This document shows positions 6,691-22,945 of a stretch of DNA of 29,376 nt, one piece after another. This DNA comes from Rickettsia typhi (GTDB lineage Bacteria; Pseudomonadota; Alphaproteobacteria; Rickettsiales; Rickettsiaceae). The stretch lies in NCBI GenBank assembly GCA_945875975.1, contig CAMCMD010000016.1, positions 1 to 29,376 of the forward strand, written 5' to 3'. The position numbers and the translations under genes were made by a program. The stretch's first letter is position 1; each line of letters opens with the position of its first letter. Below the pieces are notes generated by a model. It searched no databases, was not told the origin of the DNA, and saw nothing but the letters and a program-made list of their open reading frames with translations.

Positions 6691-7896
6691 ATGATAAAAT
6701 CCTATTTTAAGAAAATCTCAGGCAAGCAAAGTAAGAAATCAACTAGTTACTTGGACTTACCGTTTTTTAATTATTCACAAGATGAAAGAGTTGGAGTGGA
6801 TGCATACAAAAATAATGCAATTGTGCATAGGTGCGTCAATCTGATTGCTACTTCAGCCAGTCATATTCCATGGCAAATATTCAGAAATAACAATGGTTCA
6901 AAAGAATTGCTTAAAAACCATCCTATTCTAAGTTTACTTAAATATCCTAGTCCAGAAAAGTCAGGAGCTGATTTTTTTACAGAAAGCTTATCCAGTTTGC
7001 TGCTGTATGGAGATAGTTATTTGTTAATTTCATCCGGAAATAAAACTACTCCAAGTTTTTTATACAACCTTCATTCCTCATTAGTTGAACAAACTCTTTC
7101 TAACAATCAACTCGTGTCTTACGTTTATGGCAACGGGGATAAAAAGCAATCTTTTGAAATTGATCCAGTTACTCGAAAAAGCCGTGTACTACATATTAAA
7201 AACTACAACCCGACTGATCAACGTAAGGGATTATCCTCTTTGGCAGCAGCTGCAAAAGCAATAAATTTACATGCTAAAGTTATGGATTGGAATAAATCAT
7301 TGTTAAAAAATGCAATTAGACCGAGTGGGGCTTTGGTATTTCAGGATGGTAATGGTTATTTATCAGATGAGCAATTTGAAAGATTACAGCAACAATTTTA
7401 TGATAATTTTAGTGGTGCATCTAATTCTGGAAAGCCTCTTATTCTAGAAGGTGGGTTAAAGTGGCAAGAGACAAGTAATGCTGAGCGGTTTGAAAAATTT
7501 TTAGAATTGAAAGATTCAAGTGCAAGAGACATAGCCATAGCATTCAATGTACCTCCATAATTATTGGGAATTAACGGGGATAATACTTATAGCAATATGC
7601 AAGAAGCAAGGTTGGCTCTATGGGAAGAGAATATTATTCCACTACTCGATAAATATGCTGATGCATTAAGTAGCTGGCTATCTTATTGGTATAAAGAAGA
7701 TTTGACTATCGATTTTGATAAAGAATCTATTTCCGTACTTACAGAACGTAGAGAAAATGTATGGGCAAAAATTGCAAGTGCAGATTTTATGACGATTAAA
7801 GAAAAAAGAGCAATTGTTGGATTAACTCCTATCAAAGGGATGGATAAAATTAGTATAAATCTAACTGGAGAGCGTAATGAAAGAAACGGTGAATAA
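6691..7896 (+). pseudogene. HK97-type phage/GTA portal protein with an in-frame stop
   Basis: The frame encodes a portal protein of about 400 residues, full family length: N-terminal NNAIVHRCVNLIATSASHIP, central LLYGDSYLLI, and FNVPPxLLGINGDNTYSNM near the C-terminus. The portal is the dodecameric ring through which the terminase pumps DNA. Codon 290 (7558-7560) is TAA inside PP-x-LLGI, where Gln (CAA) is usual, so a single C-to-T change cut the gene. The remaining 111 codons are undamaged and in the same frame, so the lesion is recent or an error. A ribosome site (AGGAAGAGG) precedes the ATG. It heads a packaging module with the 86-residue protein and the large terminase, as in GTA relics of Rickettsiales. 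Confidence 0.85.
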
Positions 7897-8137
7897 ATTA
7901 TACAGTTTTATAGCAAAACTAGTTTTGATGCTTGAGGACGAGTTAGATGAGTTGAAGTCTAGCAAATCTAAAAGTGCAATTAATGTTAAAAGAAATATTA
8001 CGGATACACTTAATAAGCTGGTGAATCTTATAATACAGTTAAATAAATTAAGTAGAGACGAGGCAATGAATACTAATGTTGATATGACTAAGGAAGATAA
8101 AGATATCATAGAACGATTCATACATAGATATAAATAA
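7877..8137 (+). CDS. Small coiled-coil protein of packaging module (possible small terminase)
   Basis: An 86-residue, almost wholly helical protein with heptad-like Leu/Ile spacing (LMLEDELDELKSS, then NITDTLNKLVNLIIQLNKLS). It starts inside the last 20 bases of the portal frame and ends 36 bases before the terminase start, so it belongs to the same transcript. Its size, helical nature and place next to the large terminase resemble the gp1-type small terminase subunit of alphaproteobacterial GTAs; this is inference, as no decisive motif exists. It remains intact while the portal is broken. Confidence 0.65.
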   Translation: MKETVNKLYSFIAKLVLMLEDELDELKSSKSKSAINVKRNITDTLNKLVNLIIQLNKLSRDEAMNTNVDMTKEDKDIIERFIHRYK

Positions 8138-8173
8138 ATCCCTGTATTGTTCAGTTTGAAAGGAAAAAATCAT

Positions 8174-9574
8174 ATGACGTGTAATAAAAAGCTTCTTGAA
8201 GCAGTCTTGCGTCAGGATTTTAGCAGCTATATTAGTAAAGTATTTCATACTATTAATCCAGGGGCGGAGTATCAATCAAATTGGCATATAAACCTAATTT
8301 CAGACCACCTCGAAAGAGTCAAATCATCAGAAATCAAGAGGTTGATAATCAATATGCCGCCCAGGGCATTAAAGTCTGTTTGTGTTAGTGTTGCGTGGCC
8401 TACCTGGTTATTAGGCCATAATCCTGCAGCTCGCATTATGGCTGCTAGCTACTCCTCAGTACTTAGCGTTAAGCATTCCCTTGATAGTAGGCTTGTGGTT
8501 TCTTCAGAATGGTATGGGAGGTTATTTCCAGCCACTAAGCTTAGCAAAAAATACAACCAAAAAAGTAAATTTCTCACTTCTGAAAACGGATTTAGATTTG
8601 CAACGAGTGTAGGTGGGGCAGCCACGGGTGAGGGAGGAGATTTTCTGATTATTGATGACCCGCATAACTCTACGCAAATCAATTCTCAGAAAGCCAGGAA
8701 TAAAGTCATTGAATGGTTTGAACAAACTTTTGTAACTAGGTTAAATGACCAAAGCAAAGGCGCTATAGTTCTAGTTATGCAGCGCCTGCATGAAGACGAT
8801 TTATCAGCGCATTTGATTTCAAGTGGCGGTTGGGAGCTTCTTAAAATACCAGCAATTGCTTTTGAGGATAAGATTTATAATATTGGTATAAATAGCTATG
8901 AGTATAAAAAGGGACAAATTCTCAATCAAGAGAGAGATCAATTGGCGTTCTTAAATAATGTAGAACAAGAGATGGGGGTAAGAAATTTTGCTGCTCAATT
9001 TCTTCAAGATCCATTGCCATCTGACATTAATTTATTAGCATTAGAGGATATTTTGTATTATGAGGAGTTGACTCAAGGATTTGAATATTTTGTCTTAAGT
9101 TGGGATACGGCAATTAAGATTTCAGAAAAATCTGATTATAGTGTTGGCACATGTTGGGGAGTGTTATCTGGCAAATTTTATCTTGTGTCGATGGTCCGAA
9201 AAAAAATGAGCTATCCAACCCTTAAAAATGAGATTGAGAAACAAGCACAGAAATACAAGCCAAGGCATATCATTATAGAAGATAAAGCTAGTGGACAGTC
9301 GCTAATTCAAGATTTATCTCTTGCTGGGTACTCAAATATAAAGCCTAGTAAACCTAAGCTTGATAAAATAACCCGATTTGCGTCGGTAATACCCCTTTTT
9401 CAAGCGGGCAGAGTATTTTTGCCTAGTAAATCTGCATTTAATCGTGAATTAATTCATGAATTAACCACATTTCCAAATTCAAAAAATGACGATATTGTTG
9501 ATTCAGTGAGTCAATTTCTAAATTTCTGCAAAGAATTGTCAAGTAAAACTCCAATGCGTATCAGAATAGTTTAG
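8174..9574 (+). CDS. Large terminase subunit (phage/GTA DNA-packaging ATPase-nuclease)
   Basis: A 466-residue terminase. The ATPase half has the Walker A-like NMPPRALKSVCVS (about residues 60-72) and the Walker B FLIIDDPHNS. The C-terminal RNase-H-like nuclease carries acidic residues in LSWDTAI, IIIEDKASG and KNDDIVDSVSQF. The frame is open from a TTG at 8147, but ATG 8174 is preceded at 9 bases by AAAGGA and is chosen. The protein looks full length and intact. It would cut and translocate DNA through the portal. Gene order portal, small protein, terminase differs from the terminase-first order of the Rhodobacter GTA. No capsid, protease or tail gene is in the window, so the module is a remnant or one part of a dispersed GTA. 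Confidence 0.9.
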   Translation: MTCNKKLLEAVLRQDFSSYISKVFHTINPGAEYQSNWHINLISDHLERVKSSEIKRLIINMPPRALKSVCVSVAWPTWLLGHNPAARIMAASYSSVLSVKHSLDSRLVVSSEWYGRLFPATKLSKKYNQKSKFLTSENGFRFATSVGGAATGEGGDFLIIDDPHNSTQINSQKARNKVIEWFEQTFVTRLNDQSKGAIVLVMQRLHEDDLSAHLISSGGWELLKIPAIAFEDKIYNIGINSYEYKKGQILNQERDQLAFLNNVEQEMGVRNFAAQFLQDPLPSDINLLALEDILYYEELTQGFEYFVLSWDTAIKISEKSDYSVGTCWGVLSGKFYLVSMVRKKMSYPTLKNEIEKQAQKYKPRHIIIEDKASGQSLIQDLSLAGYSNIKPSKPKLDKITRFASVIPLFQAGRVFLPSKSAFNRELIHELTTFPNSKNDDIVDSVSQFLNFCKELSSKTPMRIRIV

Positions 9575-9670: not shown

Positions 9671-9747
9671 GCGCCCTTAGCTCAGCTGGATAGAGCAACG
9701 GATTTCTAATCCGTAGGTCAGAGGTTCGAATCCTCTAGGGCGCACCA
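9671..9747 (+). tRNA. tRNA-Arg (anticodon TCT)
   Basis: A 77-base cloverleaf. The acceptor arm GCGCCCT pairs with AGGGCGC, the discriminator is A and the CCA end is encoded at 9745-9747. The D-arm region is TTAGCTCAGCTGGATAGAGC. The anticodon stem ACGGA/TCCGT closes loop TTTCTAA, giving anticodon TCT, which reads AGA/AGG. The T loop is GGTTCGAATCC. The 3' end is directly followed by, and shared with, a recombinase relic on the other strand, so this tRNA is probably an integration target. Confidence 0.95.
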
Positions 9748-10135
9748 TTCTCCATTTTCAGCTGTTTTTACGAATGCGTCAAACGGTGGACACAAGGTGT
9801 AGACTAGCTTCTGGCTTTTTAGCTGCAGGTTATCAAACACCAGATTTATCAATTTGCGTTTTCCTCGATAGTTGAACCCCTGAATGTTTCACCCGCGTTG
9901 GAAGCTAGTTGTAGTGTACTAATAAGCCCTTCTGCAAAGTTATTGTCCGCTCTATTGTTACTTTCCAGTTCTTTTAGCAAATCATCGCGTTTTTGCTCCA
10001 GTTCTTTTCTTTTTTCTTTGTAATAATCTTTTCTGCATCTGATGAGCTGAGCTCCTGATGGCTGCTATTGCTTTTTCAAGCAGCTCTGGTTTTAAATACA
10101 TTTCATCAAATATGCAGCATAATTATTAGTGGTTC
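9718..10135 (-). pseudogene. Serine recombinase C-terminal relic abutting tRNA-Arg (copy 1)
   Basis: Leftward translation gives, in three successive frames, a helical stretch FDEMYLKPELLEKAIAAIR, a coiled coil YYKEKRKELEQKRDDLLKEL then GLISTLQLASNAGETFRGS, and the end LINLVFDNLQLKSQKLVYTL then CPPFDAFVKTAENGEWC. This is the C-terminal layout of large serine recombinases (zinc-ribbon/coiled-coil type). At least two frameshifts separate the blocks, and the catalytic N-terminal domain is absent. The frame runs through the tRNA CCA end (TGG codon 9745-9747) and stops inside the tRNA at 9718. The family call is by pattern only. Codons within 9742-9801 are repeated almost exactly at 13073-13132. 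Confidence 0.65.
9742..9801. repeat. 60-bp direct repeat, copy 1 (includes tRNA-Arg 3' end)
   Basis: Runs from GCACCATTCTCC to ACACAAGGTGTA. It matches 13073-13132 at 59 of 60 bases (C at 9759, T at 13090), same orientation. Upstream, GGGCGCACCA of the tRNA is matched by GGGTGCACCA at the second copy. The repeat encodes the end of the serine recombinase on the minus strand. Confidence 0.9.
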
Positions 10136-10396
10136 CTAAAAAGCTATACCATATTCTATTGCAAAATAAGACAAAAATTTTATTGCTTTTACTGTCCTAA
10201 CCAAAAATTTTATAAATATTTTGGAATTAGAATCAAAAGTATTGGCTAAATTTCCGAAGAGATACTCCTTTTTTTATGGTTTTTAAGAAAATCTAATGTT
10301 ATTTTTTCTGAACCTACAAACCAGATTTCTGAAATTCCTAAACTATAAAATAGCAAAGATTTATTTAACCGTATCATCCGATTGACATACATTCAT
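10136..10396 (-). pseudogene. Uma2-like endonuclease relic
   Basis: Leftward translation gives SDDTVK, then in a shifted frame NKSLLFYSLGISEIWFV and GSEKITLDFLKNHK, then a stop and, in a further frame, FLVRTVKAIKFLSYFAIEYG. The order 'SDxTv...K..LyslGIsEiWfv' matches the Uma2 family (putative PD-(D/E)XK nucleases common in cyanobacteria and some intracellular bacteria). It is broken by at least two frameshifts and lacks its N-terminus. It sits head-to-head with the folate operon. Recognition is by pattern only. Confidence 0.4.
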
Positions 10397-10410
10397 ATAC
10401 TATGTTAAAT
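10382..10410 (+). promoter_or_regulatory. Possible folate-operon promoter
   Basis: A perfect TTGACA at 10382-10387, 17-base spacer and TTAAAT at 10405-10410 (four of six -10 matches). It lies about 70 bases before the folB reading frame and partly over the Uma2-like relic, so it may have been recruited. Low certainty for the -10 box. Confidence 0.4.
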
Positions 10411-10467
10411 TGGTGGAACCGTATGTTATATTAGGTAAGGAATAGCATAATTTTGAATTACTTAAGA

Positions 10468-10474
10468 AAGGAGG
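10468..10474 (+). promoter_or_regulatory. Strong Shine-Dalgarno site of folB without a start codon in place
   Basis: AAGGAGG is a perfect ribosome-binding site. The codon at the ideal distance, 10481-10483, is TTC in the folB frame, where an ATG would be expected. The only in-frame alternatives are ATA 10478, ATT 10493 and TTG 10517. The site shows that translation once started near 10481. Confidence 0.7.
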
Positions 10475-10516
10475 TAAATATTCAATAAAAATATTTTTAG
10501 ACTATCCATCTCAGAT

Positions 10517-10885
10517 TTGCGGATATGGATTCATCTCGGATGTAGCAATGAAGAAAAGTTTCATCCCCAACTTATTAGTTTTAATATAAATTTAGACTTT
10601 AACTCTTCTCCTAAAGGTGCAAGTACAGACAGTCTTGAAGACACAATTTGTTATCTTAGACTTGTTGAAGCGATCAAAGCATATTGCAAAAATAAACGTT
10701 TCAATCTTATAGAGTGCCTAACAGAATCAATTTATAAATTGATTGAACAACTTTTACTACCTCATTACAACCTTATTGCTTCAATCAAGATAATAACGCA
10801 TAAGGTTTCGCCACCTGTTGAGTATGTTTACGGAGGAGTTGTCTTTACATACTGTGTTAACTCAGAGGAAAGGGGAAATGTATGA
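10517..10885 (+). CDS. folB: Dihydroneopterin aldolase (FolB-like)
   Basis: FolB converts 7,8-dihydroneopterin to 6-hydroxymethyl-dihydropterin in folate synthesis. The family pattern is clear: a Glu in GCSNEEKFHPQ, the segment DSLEDTICYLRLVEAI with the catalytic-type Tyr, LIECLTESIYKLI, and KIITHKVSPPVEYVYGGVV with the conserved Lys. The standard start available is TTG 10517 (122 residues), but the frame is open back to 10478 and the residues NKNIFRLSISDLR before it fit the first beta strand of FolB. The true start was probably at 10481, where a perfect ribosome site now faces TTC. Expression may rely on ATT 10493 or TTG, or be lost. Its stop overlaps the start of folKP (ATGA). Confidence 0.75.
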   Translation: MRIWIHLGCSNEEKFHPQLISFNINLDFNSSPKGASTDSLEDTICYLRLVEAIKAYCKNKRFNLIECLTESIYKLIEQLLLPHYNLIASIKIITHKVSPPVEYVYGGVVFTYCVNSEERGNV

Positions 10886-12156
10886 TTTATATTAGCCTTG
10901 GGTCTAACTTAGGAAATCGTATTAATAATTTATGGCTTGCTGTCAATTTACTTAAAAAGCGTTGTTTACGAGATGTAAGCTGTTCTATTGTTCTTGAAAC
11001 GGAAGCAATTTTGCCAGAAGAGGCATCAGTTACATGGAATAAGCCCTTTTTAAATATGATTGTTTCAGGAGAAACAAATTTATTACCTAAAGAATTGTTG
11101 CAAGCTTTGAAAATTATAGAATACGATATTGGGCGCCACAAGAGTTATGAAAAATGGGCTCCACGCATAATTGACTTAGATATACTCCTTTATGGTGATC
11201 TTCATATTAATGAACCTAATTTTACAATACCTCATCCAGAATTAAATAATCGCAATTTTTTACAGCATCTCTTATCTCTTATGGGGGTAGATTCATGGAG
11301 ATCCAAAAGACCTGTTATCAATTCTTTTAAAAAAAGCTTTACCTTGCACCCAAGAATGGTCGGAGTTGTTAACGTTACCGATGATTCTTTTTCTGATGGT
11401 GGTAAATTTCATCAGCCAGATAAAGCTATTGAACAAGTGCATAAACTTGCTGATGAGGGCGCTAGTATTATTGAAATTGGCGCACAGTCCACCAAGCCTG
11501 GTGCTATTATTCATTCACCTGAGCAAGAATACACTAAATTAAAGCCCGTATTAGACGGGCTCTCAAAATTGATGAATGAAGAAATTATTCATATAAGCAT
11601 AGATACTTTTTGGCCTTCTTTTGCTTTAAATCTTCTTGAAAAGTACAAAATCAATTGGATAAATAACGTTAAGGGAGAATTTGATGATTATACCTTAAGT
11701 GCTATAGCTAATTCTGGGTGTAAATTCTGCTTTATGCATTCTATAAGTATTCCTCCTAGTAAAGATAGAATTATCCCCTCAAATCAAAGACCTACAGAGG
11801 TGATAATAGAATGGGGAAAATATTTTATAGAACGGCTTTTAAAACTGGGCTTTTCTTTAGAAAGCATTATTTTAGATCCGGGCATAGGTTTTGGTAAATC
11901 TGCTTATCAAAATATAGAACTATTAAGATATGCAGCTGAATTAAAACATCTAGGTGCTTTAGTAATGATTGGGCACTCTAGAAAATCTTATATTCAGACA
12001 TTTTCGTCCGAAGCTAATGCCAGTGAAAGAGATATAGAAACTATAGCTCTATCTCTTGCTTTAAAAGATAAGATAGATTTCTTGCGAGTTCACAACGTAA
12101 AGGATCACATGCGGGCTTTTGTTGCTCATGATATTGCGAATGGAGGAATATTATGA
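10882..12156 (+). CDS. folKP: Fused HPPK / dihydropteroate synthase
   Basis: A 424-residue fusion doing two consecutive folate steps. FolK (about residues 1-135, pyrophosphorylation of hydroxymethyl-dihydropterin) shows YISLGSNLGNR, RxIDLDILLYGD (residues RIIDLDILLYGD) and IPHPELNNRNF. FolP (about residues 155-424, joining the pterin to p-aminobenzoate) shows MVGVVNVTDDSFSDGG, IIEIGAQSTKPGA, ISIDTF, INNVKGE, LDPGIGFGKS, MIGHSRKSYI and RVHNV. The Pro usual in NVTPDSF is Asp here. Such FolKP fusions are known in Rickettsia. The start overlaps folB and the end overlaps folA, each as ATGA, so translation is probably coupled. Confidence 0.93.
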   Translation: MIYISLGSNLGNRINNLWLAVNLLKKRCLRDVSCSIVLETEAILPEEASVTWNKPFLNMIVSGETNLLPKELLQALKIIEYDIGRHKSYEKWAPRIIDLDILLYGDLHINEPNFTIPHPELNNRNFLQHLLSLMGVDSWRSKRPVINSFKKSFTLHPRMVGVVNVTDDSFSDGGKFHQPDKAIEQVHKLADEGASIIEIGAQSTKPGAIIHSPEQEYTKLKPVLDGLSKLMNEEIIHISIDTFWPSFALNLLEKYKINWINNVKGEFDDYTLSAIANSGCKFCFMHSISIPPSKDRIIPSNQRPTEVIIEWGKYFIERLLKLGFSLESIILDPGIGFGKSAYQNIELLRYAAELKHLGALVMIGHSRKSYIQTFSSEANASERDIETIALSLALKDKIDFLRVHNVKDHMRAFVAHDIANGGIL

Positions 12157-12659
12157 ATTTCAATAAGCGAATTATTGGTATTATGGCTGCAACTGACCAA
12201 GGGGTTATTAGCTACAATAATACTTTGCCTTGGAATTTTCCTGATGAACTTGAGCATTTTAGGAAAATAACCATGAATCATATTATGATTATGGGGCGCA
12301 AAACTTATGAAACAATACCTAAAGCACTTATGCTTGATCATCAGTCAATTGTCTTATCTCATAACACTAGTTTATTTCTAGAAAATGCCAAAGTTATCAC
12401 TTCTCTCGACGAGTGTGTGCGCTATATTGATGAGCTAAACACTCACTGTAATATTTTCATGATTGGAGGAGCACAAATAGCGCATTTGTTTTTGGCAAAC
12501 AATTTAATTTCTTCTTTTGTCTTTACACAAATACACAAACCATATTTAGGTGATACGCACCTCAACCTAAGCTACTTTAAACTTTGGTCTAAATCTATTT
12601 TAAAAGATTGCAACGATTATACTATTTATCAACTAACGAATCCAAAGGAGAATCTATGA
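12153..12659 (+). CDS. folA: Dihydrofolate reductase
   Basis: Reduces dihydrofolate to tetrahydrofolate with NADPH. The 168-residue product is of normal length. Motifs: GIMAATDQGVISYNNTLPW at the N-terminus, the catalytic acid in FPDELEHF, the NADPH-binding MGRKTYETIP, and MIGGAQIAHLF. It overlaps folKP (ATGA) before it and the CADD-like gene (ATGA) after it. It appears intact. Confidence 0.93.
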   Translation: MNFNKRIIGIMAATDQGVISYNNTLPWNFPDELEHFRKITMNHIMIMGRKTYETIPKALMLDHQSIVLSHNTSLFLENAKVITSLDECVRYIDELNTHCNIFMIGGAQIAHLFLANNLISSFVFTQIHKPYLGDTHLNLSYFKLWSKSILKDCNDYTIYQLTNPKENL

Positions 12660-12993
12660 CTTTTCTGAATAATTTAGATAAAACACTAGAACAATGGCAC
12701 TTAACTGAAAACACCCTTTTTATCAAGCATGGGACGAAGAAATTTTAAAGCGTCAAACATTACAGATTTATGCAAAAGAATATTATCATCATGTTGCTGC
12801 TTTCCCAAGATATATCAGCCAAATTCATGCTCTTTGCTCTAACCTAAAAGCACGTCAAAATCTATTAGACAATCTAATTGACGAGGAGAAAGGAGATAAT
12901 AATCATCCAGAACTTTGGTTGTGCTTTGCTGAAGAAATAGGTGTTTTTAGAGATTCTATAAAAGATAGGGCTGAGCTTGAATGCTTTTCTTAG
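12656..12993 (+). pseudogene. CADD/PqqC-like protein, frameshifted and truncated
   Basis: Begins with an ATG overlapping the folA stop. Reading MTFLNNLDKTLEQWHLTE, it shifts frame at the five-T run 12717-12721 and goes on as FYQAWDEEILKRQTLQIYAK, then EYYHHVAAFPRYISQIHAL, and DNLIDEEKGDNNHPELW. This is the N-terminal half of the CADD (Chlamydia protein associating with death domains)/PqqC haem-oxygenase-like fold, including both early tyrosines and the first Glu and His metal ligands (DEEKGDNNH). Chlamydial CADD supplies p-aminobenzoate, and its place after folA suits that role. One lost T explains the shift. The frame ends at 12991-12993 near residue 110 of an expected 220 or so; sequence beyond belongs to a recombinase relic, so the second half is deleted. 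Confidence 0.75.
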
Positions 12994-13030
12994 ATATGGA
13001 ACATTTAGTGCTTCGAATGTCTCAAATATG

Positions 13031-13180
13031 TTAGCGGGGTCGGGTACCGGTTCTAAAATCATACACCAGGGTGCACCATTCTCCATTTTTAGCTGTTTTT
13101 ACGAATGCGTCAAACGGTGGACACAAGGTGTACTCCGCTTCATCAAATTTACCATCCAGAAATAAATCGGCATTGTCACG
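13031..13180 (-). pseudogene. Serine recombinase relic with internal deletion (copy 2)
   Basis: One open frame of 50 codons reads RDNADLFLDGKFDEAEYT, then CPPFDAFVKTAKNGEWC, then TLVYDFRTGTRPR and a stop at 13031-13033. The first part resembles the middle of serine recombinases (a helix region with 'ADLFLDGKFDE'), the second is the same C-terminus as copy 1. They are joined at TACACC, which occurs in both parts, so an internal deletion is likely. The tail after GEWC differs from copy 1, which enters the tRNA there; this tail is probably the original C-terminus. It cuts off the CADD-like gene. Confidence 0.6.
13073..13132. repeat. 60-bp direct repeat, copy 2
   Basis: Same orientation as 9742-9801 with one mismatch in 60. 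It is preceded by GGGT, so GGGTGCACCA resembles the tRNA-Arg 3' end GGGCGCACCA. The pair brackets the folate operon. Confidence 0.9.
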
Positions 13181-13271
13181 TTAATTTGTGAGATTTCGGC
13201 TAATAACACCAGAAGAGTTTGCAAATTATCATACAAATTAGTTCTTCCACATATATATACTATTTATTTAA

Positions 13272-13448
13272 AACTGGCTTAGTGATATTTGGAATTCACT
13301 GCCTGGAGGAAACGACTTTCTGAATTTAGTTTGCTCTCGAAGTGATAGCCTTTTGGATAGTAAGGAGGATGATTGCAAGATTTCGCTTTCCGGAGCACTT
13401 AATGCTTGGTGGTACCAGGATACAGATTATATTGAATCTAACTATTAA
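13272..13448 (+). pseudogene. Unassigned C-terminal fragment
   Basis: A 58-codon stretch without a start codon, closed by TAA at 13446-13448. It includes WNSLPGGNDFLNLVCSR, SLLDSKEDDCKISLSGAL and ends WWYQDTDYIESNY. The composition is protein-like and unlike noise (several Trp, Cys and Gly). It may be the tail of a gene removed when the recombinase relic was rearranged. The family is not recognised. Its last bases overlap the end of the histidine kinase on the other strand. Confidence 0.3.
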
Positions 13449-14140
13449 GCTTTCAAAGGAATCTTAATCACAAAAGTAACACCAGCTTTTGTATTATTTC
13501 GAGCTACTATATTACCACCATGGGCTTTTACAACTTCTTTTGCAATTGCAAGACCAATACCAGATCCAGGAATTTTCTCTATACTATGGATCCCACGCTG
13601 CAATGGTAAAAAAATACTTTCCAGCTCATTTGAGGGAATTCCGCACCCTTCATCGCTAACTCTTAAGCTAAAACATTCAGTGCCATCTTCTTTAATAATA
13701 CCTACACGAATTTTAATCAACCCTTTCTCAGTATGATTTATAGCATTAGTAATTAAAATTTCGAGTAGCTGTTTGAACCAAAAATTATCAACTATACTAT
13801 AATAACTTGAAATTCTATTCTGAAACTTAAGCTTTAACGAAGAATTTTTAGTTCTTACTTGGTGATACTCGACTTCTTGTTTAACCAGCTCAATTAAATC
13901 ATACTTATTCAACTGGATATTAATTGTATCAGACTTGAAATTTGAAATTGTTGACAACAAGCTCACCATCTTACTAAGCTTCTTAGTGGCTTCATATATA
14001 TTTTTTAAATTTTCTTTATCATCTCCATTATCTAGTTTAACCTTACTAAGCATAAGGTCGGATAATAAGTATATATTAGTAATTGAACCATTCATTTCAT
14101 GAAGGATTTTGTCAAGATAGGTAACTTTAAGACTATTCAT
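13445..14140 (-). CDS. Soluble sensor histidine kinase without sensor domain
   Basis: A 231-residue histidine kinase core. The phosphoacceptor is His14 in LDKILHEMNGSITN (HisKA dimerisation helix). The HATPase_c domain follows with N box LITNAINHT, G1 box VSDEGCGIP, F-like LPLQRG and G2 box PGSGIGLAIAKEV. There is no membrane segment or input domain before the His, so it must take signals from a partner protein or be a fragment of a longer kinase that begins at a re-used ATG. No response regulator is adjacent; a receiver-domain relic lies at 20257. Such stand-alone kinases occur among cargo of Rickettsiales amplified genetic elements (RAGE). Confidence 0.85.
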   Translation of the reverse strand: MNSLKVTYLDKILHEMNGSITNIYLLSDLMLSKVKLDNGDDKENLKNIYEATKKLSKMVSLLSTISNFKSDTINIQLNKYDLIELVKQEVEYHQVRTKNSSLKLKFQNRISSYYSIVDNFWFKQLLEILITNAINHTEKGLIKIRVGIIKEDGTECFSLRVSDEGCGIPSNELESIFLPLQRGIHSIEKIPGSGIGLAIAKEVVKAHGGNIVARNNTKAGVTFVIKIPLKA

Positions 14141-14610
14141 AATTTTTTCTGGTACTATGGGATTACTCAGCGATTGAGCATATAAGAATCTGTATTCAAT
14201 AAATACTTTTATTACACATTAACTAAAATTATATAAACAAAAATACACATTGTCAACAACCAAAAGTTGCTTTTTTTATACAATTTATTAAATATTGCTT
14301 TAGTAAGTCCAAAGCTCTCTCTAATAGCTTTAATTTTAGTAAACCTAGAGCCTTTTTTGATTGCACATGTACAAGAAAATAGCTATTAGATGCGTTGTAA
14401 AGCTGTCAGAAGAAGCTATCTGAGAAAGGTAAGGTGTTAAGACGGAATTTATTAGATTTTCTGGAGTATAATTTTTATTATAGATTTTTAAATCCAGAGT
14501 TGATTTAAAGTGAGAATAAGTTTAAGGTTAATGAATGACATGAAACTCGGATGTAATAAAAATTTCCTTTTAGTAAGATTAAGAATTTTTATTTTTAGAA
14601 GGTATTAAGT
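14141..14610. other. Gap without a recognised gene
   Basis: 470 bases of AT-rich sequence between the histidine kinase and the small ankyrin gene. Only a weak hairpin, CAAC-CAAAA-GTTG followed by seven or so T's near 14261-14278, stands out. No reading frame of clear origin was seen. Confidence 0.5.
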
Positions 14611-14817
14611 ATGACTAATAAGAAAAAAATAATACAAGCAGCAAAAGTTGGTGATCTTAAAGAAATATTTGAACTAATTGATCAGGGAACAGATCCATTT
14701 ACAATGGATTGTAATGGAAGAACAGCTATTTCTTATGTTTTTAGTACTATCGACTCTGCTCAAATGAAAAAACTATCAAAAAAGATCGCTCGTTATTTGT
14801 ATATCAGAAATAAATAA
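14611..14817 (+). CDS. Small ankyrin-repeat protein
   Basis: 68 residues: IIQAAKVGDLKEIFELIDQG then DPFTMDCNGRTAISYVF, one and a half ankyrin repeats with the expected 'AAkxGDLxxIxxLIdxG' helix pattern and 'D.nGrTa'. A ribosome site (AGAAGG) is 8 bases before the ATG. It may be a complete mini-protein or the start of a longer ankyrin gene truncated by loss. It faces the nucleotidyltransferase gene tail-to-tail with 18 bases between. Ankyrin proteins in this group are often host-directed. Confidence 0.65.
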   Translation: MTNKKKIIQAAKVGDLKEIFELIDQGTDPFTMDCNGRTAISYVFSTIDSAQMKKLSKKIARYLYIRNK

Positions 14818-14835
14818 ATTACTCAATATAGTTTA

Positions 14836-17109
14836 TTATAGAAAACCTTGAGGATCAAAATCTAGACCTAAGACCTGAGTAGGTTCATCATTTATAAATG
14901 AGACTTCTTCATTTATTAAGTGCGAGAAAGAAGTATCCCCTATATTAATATTTGGGGATAATGATTCCTCCTTAAGCTTAGATATTTTTTCTTCAACTAC
15001 TCTAGCCATATAATTATTTGACATTTTTGTGTATAAAAAAAATAAATCATATAAAATTCGTAAATCTTTTGGTTCATGGATATGAGCTTTTTCTAAATAT
15101 AGTTTTGCTTTAGTATATTCAAGAAATCTCATGTGTACTTTGCCTTTAGTAAAATCACAGTTCTCAAATATAGAATCAGTTTGTAATATAGTTATACCTT
15201 TATGGCCTGGGCAGTTTTGTAAAATGTACTGTAATCTGAGCATAATATAGTAGAAATGATGTAAAATATGGGTATCTCTAAAATGAAAGATATCACTGCT
15301 TTCTAATGACTTATCCACATTTTTAAAACCATACTTTATAAGTGAACCTACTGAGATCCACTCTTTTTGTGCGAAATTATGATGGTATGCATGAAGACGA
15401 AGCTCTGATGTTATTGTAAGTGCTTCCTCAAGATGTTGTTTACCCGTTTCACTTATTGCTCCTTTTAACTTTATTTGTTCAAGAATTTGCCAGCTTGTAA
15501 ACCACGTATCTCCTTGTATTGTATCAATTTCAAAATAATTGCCTAATGCAGCGATAACTCTATCAATTATGTGATAGAGTTCTTTTACATTCAACAGTTG
15601 CCCATACTGTGTCTCATCTAATTTTAAACAATATTTGCTAACATCTTCTTGCAACAACTTTAGTGTTCTAGATTGAAGAATTTTTGTTGAAATTTTATGT
15701 TGAAGCCTTCCTTTATAATCATCATACAGTTCTTGACTTCCCATTATTAAGGAGGTAAATCTTAATGCTTGTACTAGATATTTATCAGTTTTATACCAAG
15801 TGGTACTTGGAGATTCAGACTGAAATTCAGCCATTTCTTCTGGAGTTAAAATTAGCTCATAGTCAGGAATGTTAATTAATATAGTTTCTCCATTATTAAA
15901 CTTTTTCAAAATCTTATATCCTCCCTGTCTTCCCAGAGCGGATTTACACGCGTACCATCTATTACCATCAAGACTAAATCCTCGTTGAGTCAGTCCATCC
16001 CAAAACCATTCATCTTCTTCTTTTGCTGTTCTAAGGTTATTTAGAGCCTCTACTCCAATAATAGGTAAAATAGTTTCACCTAAATTTATTATTTTGATTT
16101 GGAATAATTTAGAAAATTCTCTAAAATATTCCTTATAGTCAGAAAATCTTACTAGTATAGCAAATTCTAGATCTGACCATGGAGTCATAGTACCCATAGC
16201 AAATGAACCCAAACCAATTATCGCATACTCAATTTTTTCTAGTTCACAGCCAAGCTGATTGAAACAATCTTGCATTATTCGCTGGATAAATCCCGTACCA
16301 TGTTTATTTATAAAAAAATTACCGCATTTACTGTATAGCTCCTTAACCATAATGACTCTTGTGCAGATATTTTTGATAGAGTATTCTTTAATTTTTTCTA
16401 GTTCCAAGCCAATTTCTGTACGAAATTCTTTCAAAGGTTTTTTATAATTTTGGATACAGTATGCTACTTGTAGCATATCTTCCTCCTGTAATGAATAGGA
16501 TATGCTGCCACTACTACGACTTAAAAGAAATAACTTTTCTGCTGATAATGCTATAGATTCAAAATATATTGCATCAACTTTTTTACTATTAATCTTAAAT
16601 TCTGGTTTATATTCTATGCAAAAATTCTTACAATATTGAAATATTGCAGCAGCCTTAGCATAGTTTTCTTTATATTTATTGCTGTTTAAATAAATGATTC
16701 CAAGATGATATAAGGAGTCTAATACTATGATTGCAACTTGTTTTATATAACTTGAGGGTAATATATCTGGACCTGGCTTACTTAAAACCGGTTTCAATAT
16801 TTTTACAATCTCTGCTTCTGTTTTATCATAGTCTCTTTGTTTATAGTAATTTATTGCTTTAGCATATGATTCTTTTATTTCATTCAACTTCTTAAAAAAA
16901 GCTATATCTGAGTTTAATTTAATTACCTTTTGCTTCTTTGCAGTACTAGAATCAGCACTTGTTTCTTTAGAGAATTTTTTGTTTTTATTATGATTAGCTT
17001 TATCTTTATCAGCGTGATCAAATTTACCTTTTTTGCTAAGAGATAAAAGCACTCTACTTCTTGTATCAGTTGTTAAGCCATCTACTGATAAGCCTCTATT
17101 AGAGTGCAT
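14836..17109 (-). CDS. Large nucleotidyltransferase-fold / TPR protein
   Basis: 757 residues. The first 70 are polar and lysine-rich, probably disordered. Helical TPR-like repeats follow (about 75-200: YAKAINYYKQRDYDKTEAEI). A nucleotidyltransferase active site lies at 301-319: GSFAMGTMTPWSDLEFAIL, i.e. GS-x9-SDxE with Asp313 and Glu315 as likely metal ligands, as in DUF294/GlnD-type enzymes. A helical central region with LGRQGGYK and a final pair of TPR helices (KAKLYLEKAHIHEPKDLRIL) follow. No membrane segment or signal peptide. The C-terminus is LGLDFDPQGFL, resembling the end of the coiled-coil protein at 20953. Substrate unknown; nucleotidylation of a host or bacterial protein, or of a nucleotide, is conceivable. 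A stand-alone gene with its own 244-base upstream gap. Confidence 0.7.
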   Translation of the reverse strand: MHSNRGLSVDGLTTDTRSRVLLSLSKKGKFDHADKDKANHNKNKKFSKETSADSSTAKKQKVIKLNSDIAFFKKLNEIKESYAKAINYYKQRDYDKTEAEIVKILKPVLSKPGPDILPSSYIKQVAIIVLDSLYHLGIIYLNSNKYKENYAKAAAIFQYCKNFCIEYKPEFKINSKKVDAIYFESIALSAEKLFLLSRSSGSISYSLQEEDMLQVAYCIQNYKKPLKEFRTEIGLELEKIKEYSIKNICTRVIMVKELYSKCGNFFINKHGTGFIQRIMQDCFNQLGCELEKIEYAIIGLGSFAMGTMTPWSDLEFAILVRFSDYKEYFREFSKLFQIKIINLGETILPIIGVEALNNLRTAKEEDEWFWDGLTQRGFSLDGNRWYACKSALGRQGGYKILKKFNNGETILINIPDYELILTPEEMAEFQSESPSTTWYKTDKYLVQALRFTSLIMGSQELYDDYKGRLQHKISTKILQSRTLKLLQEDVSKYCLKLDETQYGQLLNVKELYHIIDRVIAALGNYFEIDTIQGDTWFTSWQILEQIKLKGAISETGKQHLEEALTITSELRLHAYHHNFAQKEWISVGSLIKYGFKNVDKSLESSDIFHFRDTHILHHFYYIMLRLQYILQNCPGHKGITILQTDSIFENCDFTKGKVHMRFLEYTKAKLYLEKAHIHEPKDLRILYDLFFLYTKMSNNYMARVVEEKISKLKEESLSPNINIGDTSFSHLINEEVSFINDEPTQVLGLDFDPQGFL

Positions 17110-17353
17110 AATACACTCTTCATCTGGTGCAGCATATTCGTTAAGTATTTTTTTTTTTCATTAGGCCCGTGCAAATATCAATAAAAATAACTTAAGATTG
17201 ATGGTATGTCTAACATGTTACTACCATATTCCGTATATTACTAATAATATTTTATTTATTTTACTTGACAAACATTCAGCTATTGGTCTTACGATAAAAC
17301 AAGATAAATTCTATTGATACTATTTCTTATTAAATTAGGTGCTTGTTTAATCT

Positions 17354-19534
17354 CTAACCTTCTCGCTTGAGAATTCTATTTATTTTATCCCTCAAAATCA
17401 CATATTCTTTGATTTCTTCTTCCAAATGTTTTCGCTTTAAAAGGTCTATATTGTCTTGCTGTAGCATAGTACGATTTACCCTAACTATACCATCATAACT
17501 GTCTGCTTGTGTGTAGTAATTTGGAGGGGCTGCTGTTCTTGCTATATCGAATATTGTTTTTATAACTTCCAATTTTTTTGTGGAATTTATCTGAAACCGT
17601 TTTGATAAAATATCATTAAATTTACTATACCAGATATCTTTTTCGTATAACTTCAGAAGTATATTAGCTAAATTATTGTATGAAGATGAAATGCTTTTAG
17701 TTGTTAACTTATCTACTACGTCTAGTAACCCACTATTTTTATCTTCACCTAAATATATAGACTGAATTTCTTTTAAATACTTAGCCTGGTCTTTAGAATT
17801 GTTAGAATGGATAATTAATCTTGCATAGTGTTTTGACAAAGCCTCTTTGCAATAAAACTGATTAAATAAATCGTTCTTAGGAATAATAGTTGAGTGCGAT
17901 TGAGATATTGGTCTATAATTTACTATATATTCCTTTTCATCTTCTAATAATTCCTTATTCGTTTTTATAGAATCTAAGATCTTTATTTTAGCCTCCTCAG
18001 TATCATTTCTAAGAAGTGCACTTACTATCTCTTTTTCTGCAATAAACTCCGTACCACTTCGGATGCTTAAAAACCCTTCAAAAAGGCTAAGTTTTGTGCC
18101 AAGATAGTTTGCTAGTTTAAAATATTTGCGAGATTGATTTAGGTCTCCCTGGTACGCATAAGTTCTGCCAAGCAAATATACTATCCTAGTATATAATTCC
18201 GGCAAATCTTTTATACCCTGAAACTCTAGTAGTATCTCCTTTTCTGTTAAATTATCAAAGTTAAATTCTTTTCCATTTAGTTGAGCATTACTATAGGCCA
18301 TTTGTCCTGTAAAGTTTGCAAAATCCTGCTTGATCAAATAATTATTCTTAATATATTGCTCTGCAAAACTTTTTGCATAGGTTAGCAGCTTGCGAGCATT
18401 CAAACCGTCATGACTATTATAAGTATATTGATTTGCTAACGCATGTAGTACGTACAAACTATTTAAGAGTTCTTCTAAAGGTAAATCAATTTTTAGAAAA
18501 TATTGCCTCACGTTCTCATCGTCAAAATATTTAATAGTATTTTCTACCTTTCCAAGTATTTTATGATTCTTTCTCCTTTGTAAGTCATCAATATTATCTG
18601 AAGAAAGTATTTGTACAAATTGAGCAAAATTCTGATTTATTTCTTGTATTGTAGGCTGTATATCTCCTCTTTTGTAGGGATTATGAAAGAAAATCATCCA
18701 TGTTATACTTAAAATTATAACAAATAATATAAAAATGAAAAATTTAGATTTATTCAAAACAGTTATAGAATTAGTCAAGGAGGCTTCAGGATGGATACGT
18801 ACACCTTTTTGAAAAGATTCCCATATACCATGACTATCTCTCGAAAACTCCATTATTACACTCTTAATACTGTTACTCTGGGTAAGTATTTCAAGTAGCT
18901 TGAATGTGGATTGATAAAATTGCTGTTTATTACTAAAATCTATATATGTTAAGTCATTAATATGATCTGTAGGCGCTGAACAAAAGGAAATAATTATTTG
19001 ATCTTTAACTGTACTAGCAATAGACAATTCATCTGTTTTACAACAAATTATCAATTGCTTAAAATCTTTGTTAATCTCTTTCGAAATATTGATATCAATT
19101 TTAGCCAACTGTAAGTAATTTAATAGTTTATCTAATAATTTAGCTTCTTCACAATCATCATTATAAATTAAGTTGAATTTATTATAATTCCTATCAGGAA
19201 CAGCAGCTATTTTCTTTAATTGTTTCAAGAATAAATCCTCGATTAAAACACATAAGTAATATTTGCTAAAATAGGGTAGCTTTCCTGATTTTTCAGCGAA
19301 ATCTATTATTTGCTCTCTAGAATTATAACCAAGTTTTTTCATCATATTATATATGTGAGCACCCACAGTTTTAGGAGAAAGTGAAAGAAGAGAGGCTATC
19401 TTTTTATCTTTTCTATTTCCTAATAAACAAGACAAAACATCTATTTCTCTATTTGTAAAGCTTATCCCACTAACTTCTTTTAATTGTGATTGATACACAA
19501 ATTCCTTTTCAAGCAGATCTATGTCAAATTGCAT
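17354..19534 (-). CDS. Membrane-anchored LuxR-type regulator with TPR domain
   Basis: 726 residues. A GerE/LuxR HTH sits unusually at the N-terminus (24-85: FTNREIDVLSCLLGNRKD, KIASLLSLSPKTVGAHI, KKLGYNSREQII). Residues about 90-250 form an alpha/beta region (FNLIYNDDCEEAKLLDKLL, KQLIICCKTDEL, IIISFCSAP, IDFSNKQQFYQSTFKLLEIL) of unknown type. One membrane helix follows at about 264-282 (FFIFILFVIILSITWMIFF), then a 440-residue helical, TPR-like part (YLLGRTYAYQGDLNQSRKYF). This predicts a one-component, ToxR/CadC-like regulator with DNA binding in the cytosol and a repeat sensor beyond the membrane. A 17-bp perfect inverted repeat lies 29 bases before the ATG and may be its operator. Confidence 0.75.
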   Translation of the reverse strand: MQFDIDLLEKEFVYQSQLKEVSGISFTNREIDVLSCLLGNRKDKKIASLLSLSPKTVGAHIYNMMKKLGYNSREQIIDFAEKSGKLPYFSKYYLCVLIEDLFLKQLKKIAAVPDRNYNKFNLIYNDDCEEAKLLDKLLNYLQLAKIDINISKEINKDFKQLIICCKTDELSIASTVKDQIIISFCSAPTDHINDLTYIDFSNKQQFYQSTFKLLEILTQSNSIKSVIMEFSRDSHGIWESFQKGVRIHPEASLTNSITVLNKSKFFIFILFVIILSITWMIFFHNPYKRGDIQPTIQEINQNFAQFVQILSSDNIDDLQRRKNHKILGKVENTIKYFDDENVRQYFLKIDLPLEELLNSLYVLHALANQYTYNSHDGLNARKLLTYAKSFAEQYIKNNYLIKQDFANFTGQMAYSNAQLNGKEFNFDNLTEKEILLEFQGIKDLPELYTRIVYLLGRTYAYQGDLNQSRKYFKLANYLGTKLSLFEGFLSIRSGTEFIAEKEIVSALLRNDTEEAKIKILDSIKTNKELLEDEKEYIVNYRPISQSHSTIIPKNDLFNQFYCKEALSKHYARLIIHSNNSKDQAKYLKEIQSIYLGEDKNSGLLDVVDKLTTKSISSSYNNLANILLKLYEKDIWYSKFNDILSKRFQINSTKKLEVIKTIFDIARTAAPPNYYTQADSYDGIVRVNRTMLQQDNIDLLKRKHLEEEIKEYVILRDKINRILKREG

Positions 19535-19562
19535 TTTAGATTCTTTTAGTTTTATAAAAATA

Positions 19563-19608
19563 GCTTAAATTTCTAGCTAGGTATAATTACTTAGCTAGAA
19601 ATTTAAGC
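19563..19608. promoter_or_regulatory. 17-bp perfect inverted repeat in divergent region
   Basis: GCTTAAATTTCTAGCTA at 19563-19579 and its exact complement TAGCTAGAAATTTAAGC at 19592-19608, loop of 12 bases. It is between the LuxR-type gene (leftward from 19534) and the small HTH gene (rightward from 19697). It could be an operator for either regulator or an RNA hairpin in the leader of the LuxR-type gene. CTAGTTTTTT downstream on the plus strand also allows a terminator, but no plus-strand gene ends here. Confidence 0.6.
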
Positions 19609-19696
19609 CATTCTACCTAGTTTTTTATCAATGTTATTAGTGTATTTAATATAAGTAAATAAAATTTGTTATATAAAAGCATTCAGGTAAATTCAA

Positions 19697-19918
19697 GTGA
19701 TAACAATAAGCAGCAAAAGGAAAAATTTTACCTCCCACATATTAATAAAAAGTCTTGTTTCTGATAGGTTAAAAGATAAGCGCAGAAAATTGGGTATTAC
19801 GCTCTATGAAGTTTCTAACGATACTAACATTTCTACAAAAGAAATACTCGCCATTGAGAGCTCTAGCAAAAATGAAACCATTTTACAAAAATTTTATTTA
19901 ATAAAAAACATCACCTAA
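19697..19918 (+). CDS. Small HTH protein (RodZ/XRE-like HTH)
   Basis: 73 residues from a GTG start. The core SDRLKDKRRKLGITLYEVS then NDTNISTKEILAIES matches the HTH_25 helix-turn-helix of RodZ-like and XRE-like proteins, with the typical 'R..lGiTLyeVS..T.Is...i.AIE'. It lacks the membrane and C-terminal parts of RodZ. It is either a short regulator or the remnant of a longer gene. Start is uncertain; no clear ribosome site. It ends one base before the end of the convergent 94-residue gene. Confidence 0.5.
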   Translation: MITISSKRKNFTSHILIKSLVSDRLKDKRRKLGITLYEVSNDTNISTKEILAIESSSKNETILQKFYLIKNIT

Positions 19919-19919
19919 G

Positions 19920-20204
19920 TTACTTTTTATCAAGTCCTTGTTTTGGTGCTTTAAACCCAAATGTATTTTTAATCTCACTAGAGAGCGACGTATAGAATTT
20001 AGCTAATACTAAGTCAAGTTTAGACGACAATACTGAATTTGAACGTAGGAGTTTATCTAACGAAGCGCCGGTTCTTTTACTATCAAGCTCTATAGAGGTT
20101 AATATTGAAGTTATATCATCAGCTAAAAAATCCATTGCATCTTCTATTGCAGATTCAATAGCTTGTTCTATGTATTTATCATTATAAATTTTTTGTTTTT
20201 TCAT
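19920..20204 (-). CDS. Hypothetical helical protein, 94 residues
   Basis: Not recognised. The start MKKQKIYNDKYIEQAIESAI is charged and helical, followed by an acidic segment EDAMDFLADDITSILTSIEL and a basic end APKQGLDKK. No membrane segment or known motif. Convergent with the small HTH gene, so possibly a toxin-antitoxin-like neighbour, but nothing in the sequence proves this. Confidence 0.45.
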   Translation of the reverse strand: MKKQKIYNDKYIEQAIESAIEDAMDFLADDITSILTSIELDSKRTGASLDKLLRSNSVLSSKLDLVLAKFYTSLSSEIKNTFGFKAPKQGLDKK

Positions 20205-20256
20205 AACTTAATTACCATTTAATTACAACTAATGGTTTTAAAATAATTTTTTCACT

Positions 20257-20352
20257 ATAGCAACTAGTATTCTTTTAGTTGAAGATAATGTAAAAACAAA
20301 TATACTAAAATCTATGATTAGAAACAAATTGCATCAAGTTAGGCTCTATTAA
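20257..20352 (+). pseudogene. Response-regulator receiver domain relic
   Basis: Thirty-two codons read IATSILLVEDNVKTNILKSM then IRNKLHQ before a stop at 20350-20352. ILLVEDN is the classic first strand and acidic pair of receiver (REC) domains, followed by the expected first helix. The phospho-acceptor Asp region is missing. It is probably the stump of a response regulator or of the receiver part of a hybrid kinase such as once partnered the kinase at 13445. Confidence 0.5.
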
Positions 20353-20952
20353 GAGTAGCTATTTAAAGCCATTTATTCTTCATAAAATTGTAGGCTACCC
20401 CGCTTAAGTGTAAAAAAAATACTAGACTCCATAGCCAATTTAAAAGCATTTCAGCCTCAACCTAGAATAGTAAGCTAATATATAAAAGAGGCCAGTTTAG
20501 AATATAGCAAATTCTATCTGAATTTTAGGCGCAATAGAGCTGCGGTTGGGTTATATTATTCCAAATATCGAAAGCCTGTGTTCTTTTACTTTTGTATTCT
20601 TGTCTGGTTAATAAATGCATGTGTAATGAAAAATTATTCATAAGTTGTCCTTGCAAGATTAAAAATAACTACATATTAATTAGGAGGATTCTTAAACTTG
20701 CGCTTCACTTCCTCAAAACAATCTAGTAGGCTGATGCGATACTTCAATTTGATTATTTAGTCGCTTATACGATACTGTAGGTAATTTAGGTAAAGCCATA
20801 TTTTACATATTTAAAAGCTCTTATCCTCTGTTCTCTACAACTTCAATATCTTTGTTTAACTTGACAAATCATCTCAGCTTTGTGCAGCCTCGCTCTTAAA
20901 TTTATCCTATCTGAACCTTAGTGCACTATACTATAAGTATAAAACTTTTATA
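20353..20952. other. Gap without a recognised gene
   Basis: 600 bases after the receiver relic. On the minus strand 20713-20799 encodes a 28-residue peptide (MALPKLPTVSYKRL and so on) of unknown status. Otherwise frames are short and no RNA gene was recognised. The stretch looks like decayed coding sequence. Confidence 0.4.
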
Positions 20953-21408
20953 TTATTCTTCAGGATCAAAATTTTGACCTGCCATTTCCAAGTCATAAGG
21001 CTTAGCGTTTTCTACCATTGAAACATCTTCTTGATGTTGACCGGACAAAAATCCCGTCACAAGTTGTTCTAATTCTTGAATCTTTTGCTGCATTTCTGCC
21101 TTATCTTGTTGATATTGTTCTTTGAGAAGGTTATTTTCTTGTTCTAATAATTGAGTTTTTTCATATAACAATATGCTATTTTGAGTTATAGGATTATTGA
21201 GACATTCATGATAATCTTTGTTTATTTCAGCTATTTTATTCTTAAAATGTTCAGATAGGATAATAGTATTTAACCTTTCTAATGCTTCTTGTATTCCAGG
21301 ATATTTTTGCATTAAATACACTATCCTATTTAGGCCATTCATTAAATATTGTTGGTGAAATTCTTTAAATACCTTCTTAGGAACTTGATACTCAGGATGC
21401 ATAGCCAT
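20953..21408 (-). CDS. Coiled-coil protein, probably the detached tail of an ankyrin gene
   Basis: 151 residues. The N-terminal 60 are helical (PKKVFKEFHQQYLMNGLNRI), then a Gln/Glu/Lys coiled coil (about 80-115: LYEKTQLLEQENNLLKEQYQ), then a polar end MAGQNFDPEE. The frame is open upstream of the ATG without a start, reading SPKLLRGQLDGNFISEDSTA, to a TAG about 40 bases inside the preceding ankyrin frame. The two frames overlap there, which suggests one extra base split a single ankyrin-coiled-coil gene. The last residues resemble the C-terminus of the nucleotidyltransferase protein, also at DNA level. Confidence 0.6.
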   Translation of the reverse strand: MAMHPEYQVPKKVFKEFHQQYLMNGLNRIVYLMQKYPGIQEALERLNTIILSEHFKNKIAEINKDYHECLNNPITQNSILLYEKTQLLEQENNLLKEQYQQDKAEMQQKIQELEQLVTGFLSGQHQEDVSMVENAKPYDLEMAGQNFDPEE

Positions 21409-21472
21409 AAATTTACCTTCTGCTGTAGAATCTTCTGAGATAAAATTTCCATCAAGTTGTCCTCTTAATAAT

Positions 21473-22258: not shown

Positions 22259-22278
22259 ATGAGCATTTATATCAGCTT

Positions 22279-22681: not shown

Positions 22682-22743
22682 TTAAAAGCTTGTGAACATA
22701 GGGAGGTTAGAGCTATTTTGTTGAATCAGCAAGTGAAACTGGT

Positions 22744-22909: not shown

Positions 22910-22945
22910 TTGTTTGTCGAAAGCATCAAACTTTTCGACAAACAA
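22910..22945. repeat. 13-bp perfect inverted repeat
   Basis: TTGTTTGTCGAAA at 22910-22922 and TTTCGACAAACAA at 22933-22945 with a 10-base loop. It lies at the edge of the recombinase relic and may be a terminator or an element end. No T tract on the plus strand; the minus strand has AAAAAG before it. Confidence 0.5.

Follow-up and report, generated by a model that had tools for sequence, protein, structure and literature searches.

A folate-gene island at tRNA-Arg(TCT) in a Rickettsiaceae contig, probably formed by tandem elements with a tRNA-specific serine recombinase

The insertion at tRNA-Arg(TCT) and its empty site

In the present study, we analysed a stretch of 29,376 nucleotides (the window) from contig CAMCMD010000016.1 of an assembly labelled Rickettsia typhi, in which a tRNA-Arg(TCT) gene is followed by the remains of a serine recombinase gene on the opposite strand, by the folate operon folB-folKP-folA and by further genes up to position 24545. 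The original prediction, made from the letters of the window, held that a site-specific element of 3.3 kb, whose recombinase gene has the attachment (att) site at its 3' end and matches the tRNA acceptor end, had brought the folate genes in as cargo. Site, recombinase and cargo are retained here, and the far end of the insertion is moved to 24545. The island is very probably a decayed tandem insertion of at least two elements whose large serine recombinase is specific for tRNA 3' ends and has its tail exchanged, with a foreign fol operon as cargo. The features are as follows.

9671-9747, plus strand: tRNA-Arg(TCT), the target gene (ARAGORN; acceptor stem paired throughout)
9738-9747, plus strand: att copy 1, the last ten tRNA bases, GGGCGCACCA (pattern search)
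9718-10113, minus strand: recombinase relic 1, covering approximately residues 353-517 of P0134 (the C-terminal third) in shifted frames and terminating in the antisense tRNA codons W-CALEDSNL and a stop (translation; tblastn of 120 homologues)
10517-10885, plus strand: folB (PF02152; FolB domain)
10882-12156, plus strand: folKP fusion (folK and DHPS models above cut-off; apparently foreign by its tree)
12153-12659, plus strand: folA (PF00186)
12656-12993, plus strand: CADD-like gene fragment, broken and cut short (frames apart; TENA/THI-4 match on one piece)
13031-13078, minus strand: putative right end of element 1, comprising the att copy 13069-13078 and the native recombinase tail W-CTLVYDFRTGTRPR with a stop (native-tail homologues align across)
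13069-13078: att copy 2, internal, GGGTGCACCA (six bases shared with the 60-base repeat of the original prediction)
13079-13171, minus strand: recombinase relic 2, a small, internally deleted piece of the C-terminus and putative left end of element 2 (53 of 54 bases as in relic 1 beside the core)
13079-24535, no strand: remainder of the island (element 2, perhaps composite), with a histidine kinase, a LuxR-TPR protein, an ankyrin protein, a transposase fragment and a split NhaA
24536-24545, plus strand: att copy 3, distal, CGGTGCACCA, marking the insertion end
24546-25307, plus strand: the former downstream flank of the tRNA, an open reading frame (ORF) of 241 amino acids (aa) that follows tRNA-Arg(TCT) in genomes G001, G002 and G032

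The gene content predicted for the first 3.3 kb stands as far as the domains of the three fol genes are concerned, and the CADD-like gene is present as a broken fragment only. No drug-resistance model among those shown reached its cut-off for folA.

The neighbouring terminase gene, used as a scan query, led to three loci: L001, in a metagenome-assembled genome labelled Rickettsia typhi, L002, and the Megaira genome L003. At L001 (G001), the homologue of the window from 24546 onward stands directly after tRNA-Arg(TCT), and the window flanks, joined by script, align to this locus in one piece over 910 columns, at 87.5% identity and with 4 gaps; the empty site in a relative, which the original prediction had named among its checks, has thereby been found. 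The 241-aa ORF comes 134 bp after the same tRNA at L002 (G002) and 256 bp after it in G032, and neither in these two genomes nor in G001 did we detect an insert between tRNA-Arg(TCT) and the next gene, or a recombinase match at the tRNA at E 1e-2. Because the empty site in L001 joins the tRNA to the homologue of 24546, the insertion ends at 24545 and comprises 9748-24545, or 14,798 bp. The locus thus combines a whole tRNA, displaced 3' fragments of 9-10 bp, an integrase between them (as a relic) and an empty site in relatives, the marks of a genomic island in a tRNA gene.

A single 3.3-kb element at 9748-13078, with ordinary chromosome beyond 13132, would account for the two long repeat copies (described below) that flank exactly this stretch. 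However, it is the homologue of 24546, not that of 13133, which follows the tRNA in L001, and an att-like copy lies at 24536-24545. We regard such an element as very improbable, and as the whole of the insertion it was rejected on the empty-site alignment.

Would fol-free relatives carry the same relic at this tRNA, the cargo model would be in doubt. The sites of G001, G002 and G032 are empty, but G036 and G028 do carry relics at tRNA-Arg(TCT); G028 is without a folKP match, and the folKP match of G036 is on a different contig from its relic. Since these relics share 68% identity with that of the window over 47 residues and the closer relatives have empty sites, we interpret them, on sequence grounds, as separate insertions into a hotspot. 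In G031, the match to tRNA-Arg(TCT) sits at a contig edge. Ahead of the tRNA, HK97-type portal and phage terminase large subunit genes (window 6691-9574) are found, as in L001 and L002, apparently the remnant of an old prophage or of a gene-transfer agent.

Attachment copies and the internal joint

The motif GGGYGCACCA, allowing at most one mismatch, occurs at three sites in the window, which are precisely the three joints; shuffled versions of the window had a mean of 0.47 such sites, and three were reached in 1 of 100. At the tRNA, the minus-strand recombinase frame runs through ...YTLCPPFDAFVKTAENGEWCALEDSNL to a stop at 9718-9720, within the tRNA, its tryptophan codon (W, TGG) being 9745-9747, and translation thus bears out the predicted continuation of the recombinase C-terminus in frame through the tRNA CCA. 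A repeat of 72 nt connects 9730-9801 with 13061-13132 at 93% identity. Past CCA, 53 of 54 nucleotides are identical between the two copies, and together with the common GCACCA these correspond to the 59 of 60 bases reported earlier; the near-match to the tRNA end said to precede the second copy is likewise there, at 13069-13078. At one position, C in the tRNA is T in both displaced att copies, which points either to an exchange inside GCACCA or to later repair of the tRNA base. The acceptor stem of tRNA-Arg(tct) is of the G3:C70 type in the window, G001, G002 and G003, and of the A3:U70 type in G036, G028, G032, G080 and G083. The window's displaced cores match the A3:U70 type, which may hint at the donor.

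The internal joint, taken on the minus strand, consists of GGAGAATGG followed by TGCACCCTGGTGTATGATTTTAGAACC and translates as W-CTLVYDFRT. Several recombinase copies away from tRNAs share this continuation (GAATGG, seven bases, then approximately TAGTGGA..ATTT..GAACC), which argues that the internal copy is a restored native 3' end. Its most plausible reading is a junction between two elements in tandem, of which the first bears folB-folKP-folA. As in a tandem array, there are displaced fragments at 13069-13078 and 24536-24545 and recombinase ends at 9748 and 13079, both recombinases being relics. A similar tandem is present at tRNA-Ser(tga) in G071 and G072, with a relic at the tRNA and a native-tail copy within approximately 0.5 kb.

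Alternatively, one 14.8-kb element could have acquired its internal copy through local duplication of the recombinase end, as the near identity of the left ends (the same 53 of 54 bases) and the lack of the native-tail motif at the distal end might suggest. Against this, the internal copy possesses a native tail, which is not obtainable from the tRNA-side end, and tandem cases are known at other loci; a local duplication therefore appears improbable to us, and we continue with two elements in tandem. Element 2 might be worn or composite, or belong to another kind, since the native-tail motif is missing from its distal end. Its cargo gave weak matches only (33-34%) among the compared loci, and no tra genes were found among the part of the window ORFs that was scanned with Pfam. 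The NhaA antiporter is present as two overlapping frames (window 23304-24489) just within the distal end of the island. The recombinase copy of the window is itself dead and decayed.

The recombinase family and a second element

By sequence comparison, the window recombinase belongs to a large serine recombinase family that is common in Rickettsiaceae. An intact relative of 523 aa (L008) has the Resolvase (PF00239) and Recombinase (PF07508) domains and no match to the zinc ribbon PF13408 at 1e-3; in the part of the source drawn on here, the zinc ribbon is missing in 10 of 42 streptococcal serine integrases (PMC4701971). A 48-residue query including the tail matched in 47 of 85 Rickettsiaceae genomes, many of the genomes compared being drafts, and 29 of 31 copies (30 loci) had an antisense tRNA at their end. 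A query with a tRNA-derived tail is biased towards tRNA copies, and the search was therefore redone with the query cut at W, giving matches in 48 of the 85 genomes. From nine genomes, 59 loci represent 61 of their 72 cut-query matches, one locus being without a match. Among the 60 C-terminal copies of these genomes, 44 lie at an antisense tRNA, 11 have a native tail and 5 have neither; the Trp codon TGG falls exactly on CCA in 35 of the 44 tRNA copies and within 20 bases of it in the other 9. Thirteen anticodons are represented in this set (Arg tct/acg/ccg, Ser gga/gct/tga, Gln ttg, Met cat, Asp gtc, Asn gtt, Ala tgc, Leu tag and Val gac), and Glu ttc, Leu taa and Ile gat from other loci bring the total to 16. 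The att core comprises CCA, the discriminator and several acceptor bases, with ten bases matching for Arg targets and fewer for the Ser type. A second subfamily (L133, L156, L161, L162, L167 and L168) has GFEP.. or GLEP.. tails, and Trp on CCA is thus not universal.

Across the class, a tail-less full-length query found matches in 21 of 385 genomes at 1e-40. An antisense tRNA overlaps the 3' part of the frame at 13 of the 24 class-wide loci read, a tRNA stands 102 bp past the stop at one, and 10 have none, including all five loci below 29% identity. The tails, classed by regular expression on the protein letters, were of tRNA type in 64, of native type in 30 and of other types in 16 of the 120 listed among 1189 homologues, with 10 lacking the anchor; the 1189 had been drawn from 7999 scored candidates sharing most words. 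The native-tail motif, at two mismatches or fewer, gave 45 matches in 10 of 12 genomes, of which 30 were read, and one match in the reversed control. In plasmid and phage collections, all relatives were below 60% identity.

A Legionella adelaidensis record (L035, NZ_LR134433.1), called a plasmid but containing uvrB, holds a relative at 36% identity whose gene ends in tRNA-Asn(gtt); next to this serine recombinase gene there is one for a tyrosine recombinase. This neighbourhood, together with the statement in part of PMC4383910 that tyrosine enzymes are the usual integrases at tRNAs, could be taken to mean that a tyrosine integrase built the island and that the serine recombinase is a passenger. 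However, the L. adelaidensis tyrosine recombinase is unmatched in the window and in the other compared loci, no tyrosine integrase was present among the part of the window ORFs scanned with Pfam, and the serine gene itself keeps the CCA register in 35 of the 60 copies. We consider this explanation highly improbable and hold to the serine recombinase. Just ahead of the intact recombinase, a small conserved ORF was observed (L086:9865-10329, L087:10154-10537 and L080:8937-9218), possibly a partner or directionality factor; as a directionality factor it was not accepted, its best family match being under the cut-off.

Both ends of an element could be located at another tRNA. In G071 and G072, the native-tail motif stands beside host sequence, with the cores GGGTGTACCA and GAGTGTACCA, and this host sequence, with 2-3 mismatches over 22 bases, directly follows tRNA-Arg(acg) in G074 and G076, which represent empty sites; with 3 mismatches, G073 and G083 have the 22-base flank too, in their case after tRNA-Arg(cct). 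On this basis, the element of G071 is approximately 62 kb long and that of G072 approximately 73 kb, and in both the recombinase lies on the tRNA side. That of G071 encodes TraC, TrbI, TraE and TraU above cut-off, TraK just below it, and also HD_4 and Rickettsia 120-kDa antigen family proteins, and thus appears to be a conjugative element of the Rickettsiales amplified genetic element (RAGE) type. An open reading frame of 6853 aa lies on its tRNA-distal side (L299-L302).

The fol operon, the proposed mechanism and its meaning

In the UvrC tree, the window groups with G031 (98% identical), G001 (91%) and G002 (87%), followed by G032, G036, G037 and G028, and it seems to represent a Rickettsiaceae lineage beside the first three rather than demonstrably Rickettsia itself. 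The label of L001 (CAMBEC010000008.1, titled Rickettsia typhi) looks wrong as well, its UvrC being 91% identical to that of the window and grouping apart from other lineages. FolKP of the window, in contrast, stands with P0002 and then with G080, G083 and P0018 (100/99), inside a Tisiphia-type and Megaira-type group and apart from FolKP of G032, G033, G036 and G037. Because the two trees disagree, the fol operon is judged to be foreign. Matches to folKP occur in 43 of the 85 Rickettsiaceae genomes and in none of G001, G002 and G031, drafts for which absence is weak evidence; fol as an old resident of the site was rejected on the trees together with these missing matches.

That fol operons might sit elsewhere without the recombinase fragment had been raised as a difficulty for the cargo model, and this is indeed the case in all 14 other fol neighbourhoods read, where no recombinase match was found. 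Therefore, the recombinase family does not regularly carry fol as cargo, and the cargo model is kept for the window alone; the pattern fits an operon that is resident in other genomes and cargo only here. The operon of the four Megaira-type genomes G003, G023, G024 and G025 is found close to tRNA-Gly(gcc). The fol genes could also have been inserted later into a fol-free element already at tRNA-Arg(TCT), in keeping with the fact that no other genome read has fol beside the recombinase; yet reading 9748-13078, without a dedicated test, revealed no trace of a separate insertion around fol. We think a later insertion rather unlikely and infer that fol arrived with the element.

The following course of events may be envisaged. 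In the circular element, the recombinase gene would span the att core at its Trp codon (TGG, the complement of CCA) and continue into the native tail (..LVD.FRT). Recombination at the 3' terminus of a tRNA gene, presumably catalysed by the serine recombinase itself, would join the gene at this codon to the antisense tRNA strand, and consequently the integrated gene would end in tRNA-derived codons (..LEDSNL and a stop), the acceptor end of the tRNA would stay whole, and the native tail would move to the far end of the element. Upon a second integration next to the first, presumably in that order, the right end of one element would meet the recombinase of the other and produce an attP-like joint, here 13031-13132, and fol would be cargo of foreign origin on the proximal element. 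The native tail would return upon excision or upon tandem insertion. As in rumA-type tail exchange, two tail states past the same codon and both empty and filled sites are observed. By analogy with Mx8 and the rumA elements, the recombinase tail may adjust activity.

Decayed tandem insertion is argued for by the repeats, the empty site, the incongruence of fol, the tRNA and W register of the family, the native tails and the second two-ended element, each of which is legible in the sequences. Several points weigh against it. The direct repeat at the joint is only 9-10 bp long, the distal end at 24536-24545 is without the native-tail motif, and the 14 other fol neighbourhoods are without the recombinase. 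In the family, neither tail state is seen in 5 of the 60 copies, the exact register is missed by 9 of the 44 tRNA-abutting copies, and the second subfamily uses a different frame when it runs into the tRNA. For most intact recombinases, no far end was detected nearby: when 20 genome loci and L035 were searched for a repeat of the tRNA end within approximately 10 kb of the recombinase, none passed the filter, and G080 and G083 each have only two occurrences of the exact core GGGTGCGCCA, one of them at the tRNA and the other at a great distance. Arm symmetry about the core is weak at six of seven single sites (the observed values at the seven joints were reached 8 to 795 times in 2000 shuffles), its centres lying 2-3 bases past TGG in six of the seven joints, which is suggestive only.

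The original prediction considered a serine recombinase at a tRNA end unusual, in agreement with the literature: a 2011 survey by Ghinet calls the combination rare, citing phiRSM1 and itself reporting eight Mycobacterium recombinases at a tRNA-Leu gene (PMC3218068, in part). The Int of the Ralstonia phages phiRSM1 and phiRSM3 is a serine recombinase whose att core is a tRNA 3' end, reversed and beside int; according to the portion of the source cited, however, it is a small resolvase-like enzyme with the core between ORF14 and ORF15 and a single tRNA-Ser (PMC3816273), whereas in the Rickettsiaceae family the enzyme is a large serine recombinase, the targets are many tRNAs and the core falls within the coding end. 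The streptococcal integrative and conjugative elements (ICEs) at rumA come close in having a large serine integrase with att within its gene and in swapping the 3' part and the C-terminus upon integration (excerpt of PMC4701971), but they target the protein gene rumA instead of antisense tRNA genes. Mx8 Int of Myxococcus also has attP within the integrase gene, and its C-terminus is replaced and its activity changed on integration, as excerpts of PMC4701971 and PMC6070905 report; unlike the present enzyme it is a tyrosine integrase. In Mycobacterium, the actinomycete ICEs (AICEs) include a serine recombinase group integrated in a tRNA-Leu gene, but a single tRNA is involved, and the pertinent section of the source makes no mention of tail exchange (PMC3218068). 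RAGEs resemble the G071 element in their F-type tra genes and an HD/SpoT-like gene; the integration site of Orientia RAGEs was not determinable according to part of PMC10732058, whereas for the G071 element both ends are located and a serine recombinase is present. In a word search, the main text of a 2022 survey of large serine recombinases (PMC10083194) showed no occurrence of tRNA, and our literature search, most subscription papers being outside it, returned no published account of this recombinase family or of tRNA targeting combined with C-terminal exchange. C-terminal exchange is thus already known from Mx8 and the rumA elements, and its combination with a serine recombinase at tRNAs is apparently unreported.

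The combination called rare in 2011 is common in Rickettsiaceae, with 44 tRNA-abutting copies in nine genomes, 16 anticodons and joints that can be mapped to the base. This furnishes a search rule for such islands, namely a recombinase frame ending in an antisense tRNA, and the DSNL- and ESNP-type tails of many recombinase records would be explained as tails of the integrated state. Tentatively, as a possibility somewhat short of an even chance, we suggest that a widespread clade of large serine recombinases uses the tRNA CCA both as its landing mark and as its own Trp codon, that the exchanged C-terminus may report the state of the element and set the direction or activity of recombination, and that this clade may have seeded many Rickettsiaceae tRNA genes with conjugative and metabolic islands. 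The family would thereby offer a natural test of integrase control through tail exchange. A horizontally acquired biotin operon is known in Megaera from part of PMC13134042, and the present island would add an example of a vitamin operon moving between Rickettsiaceae.

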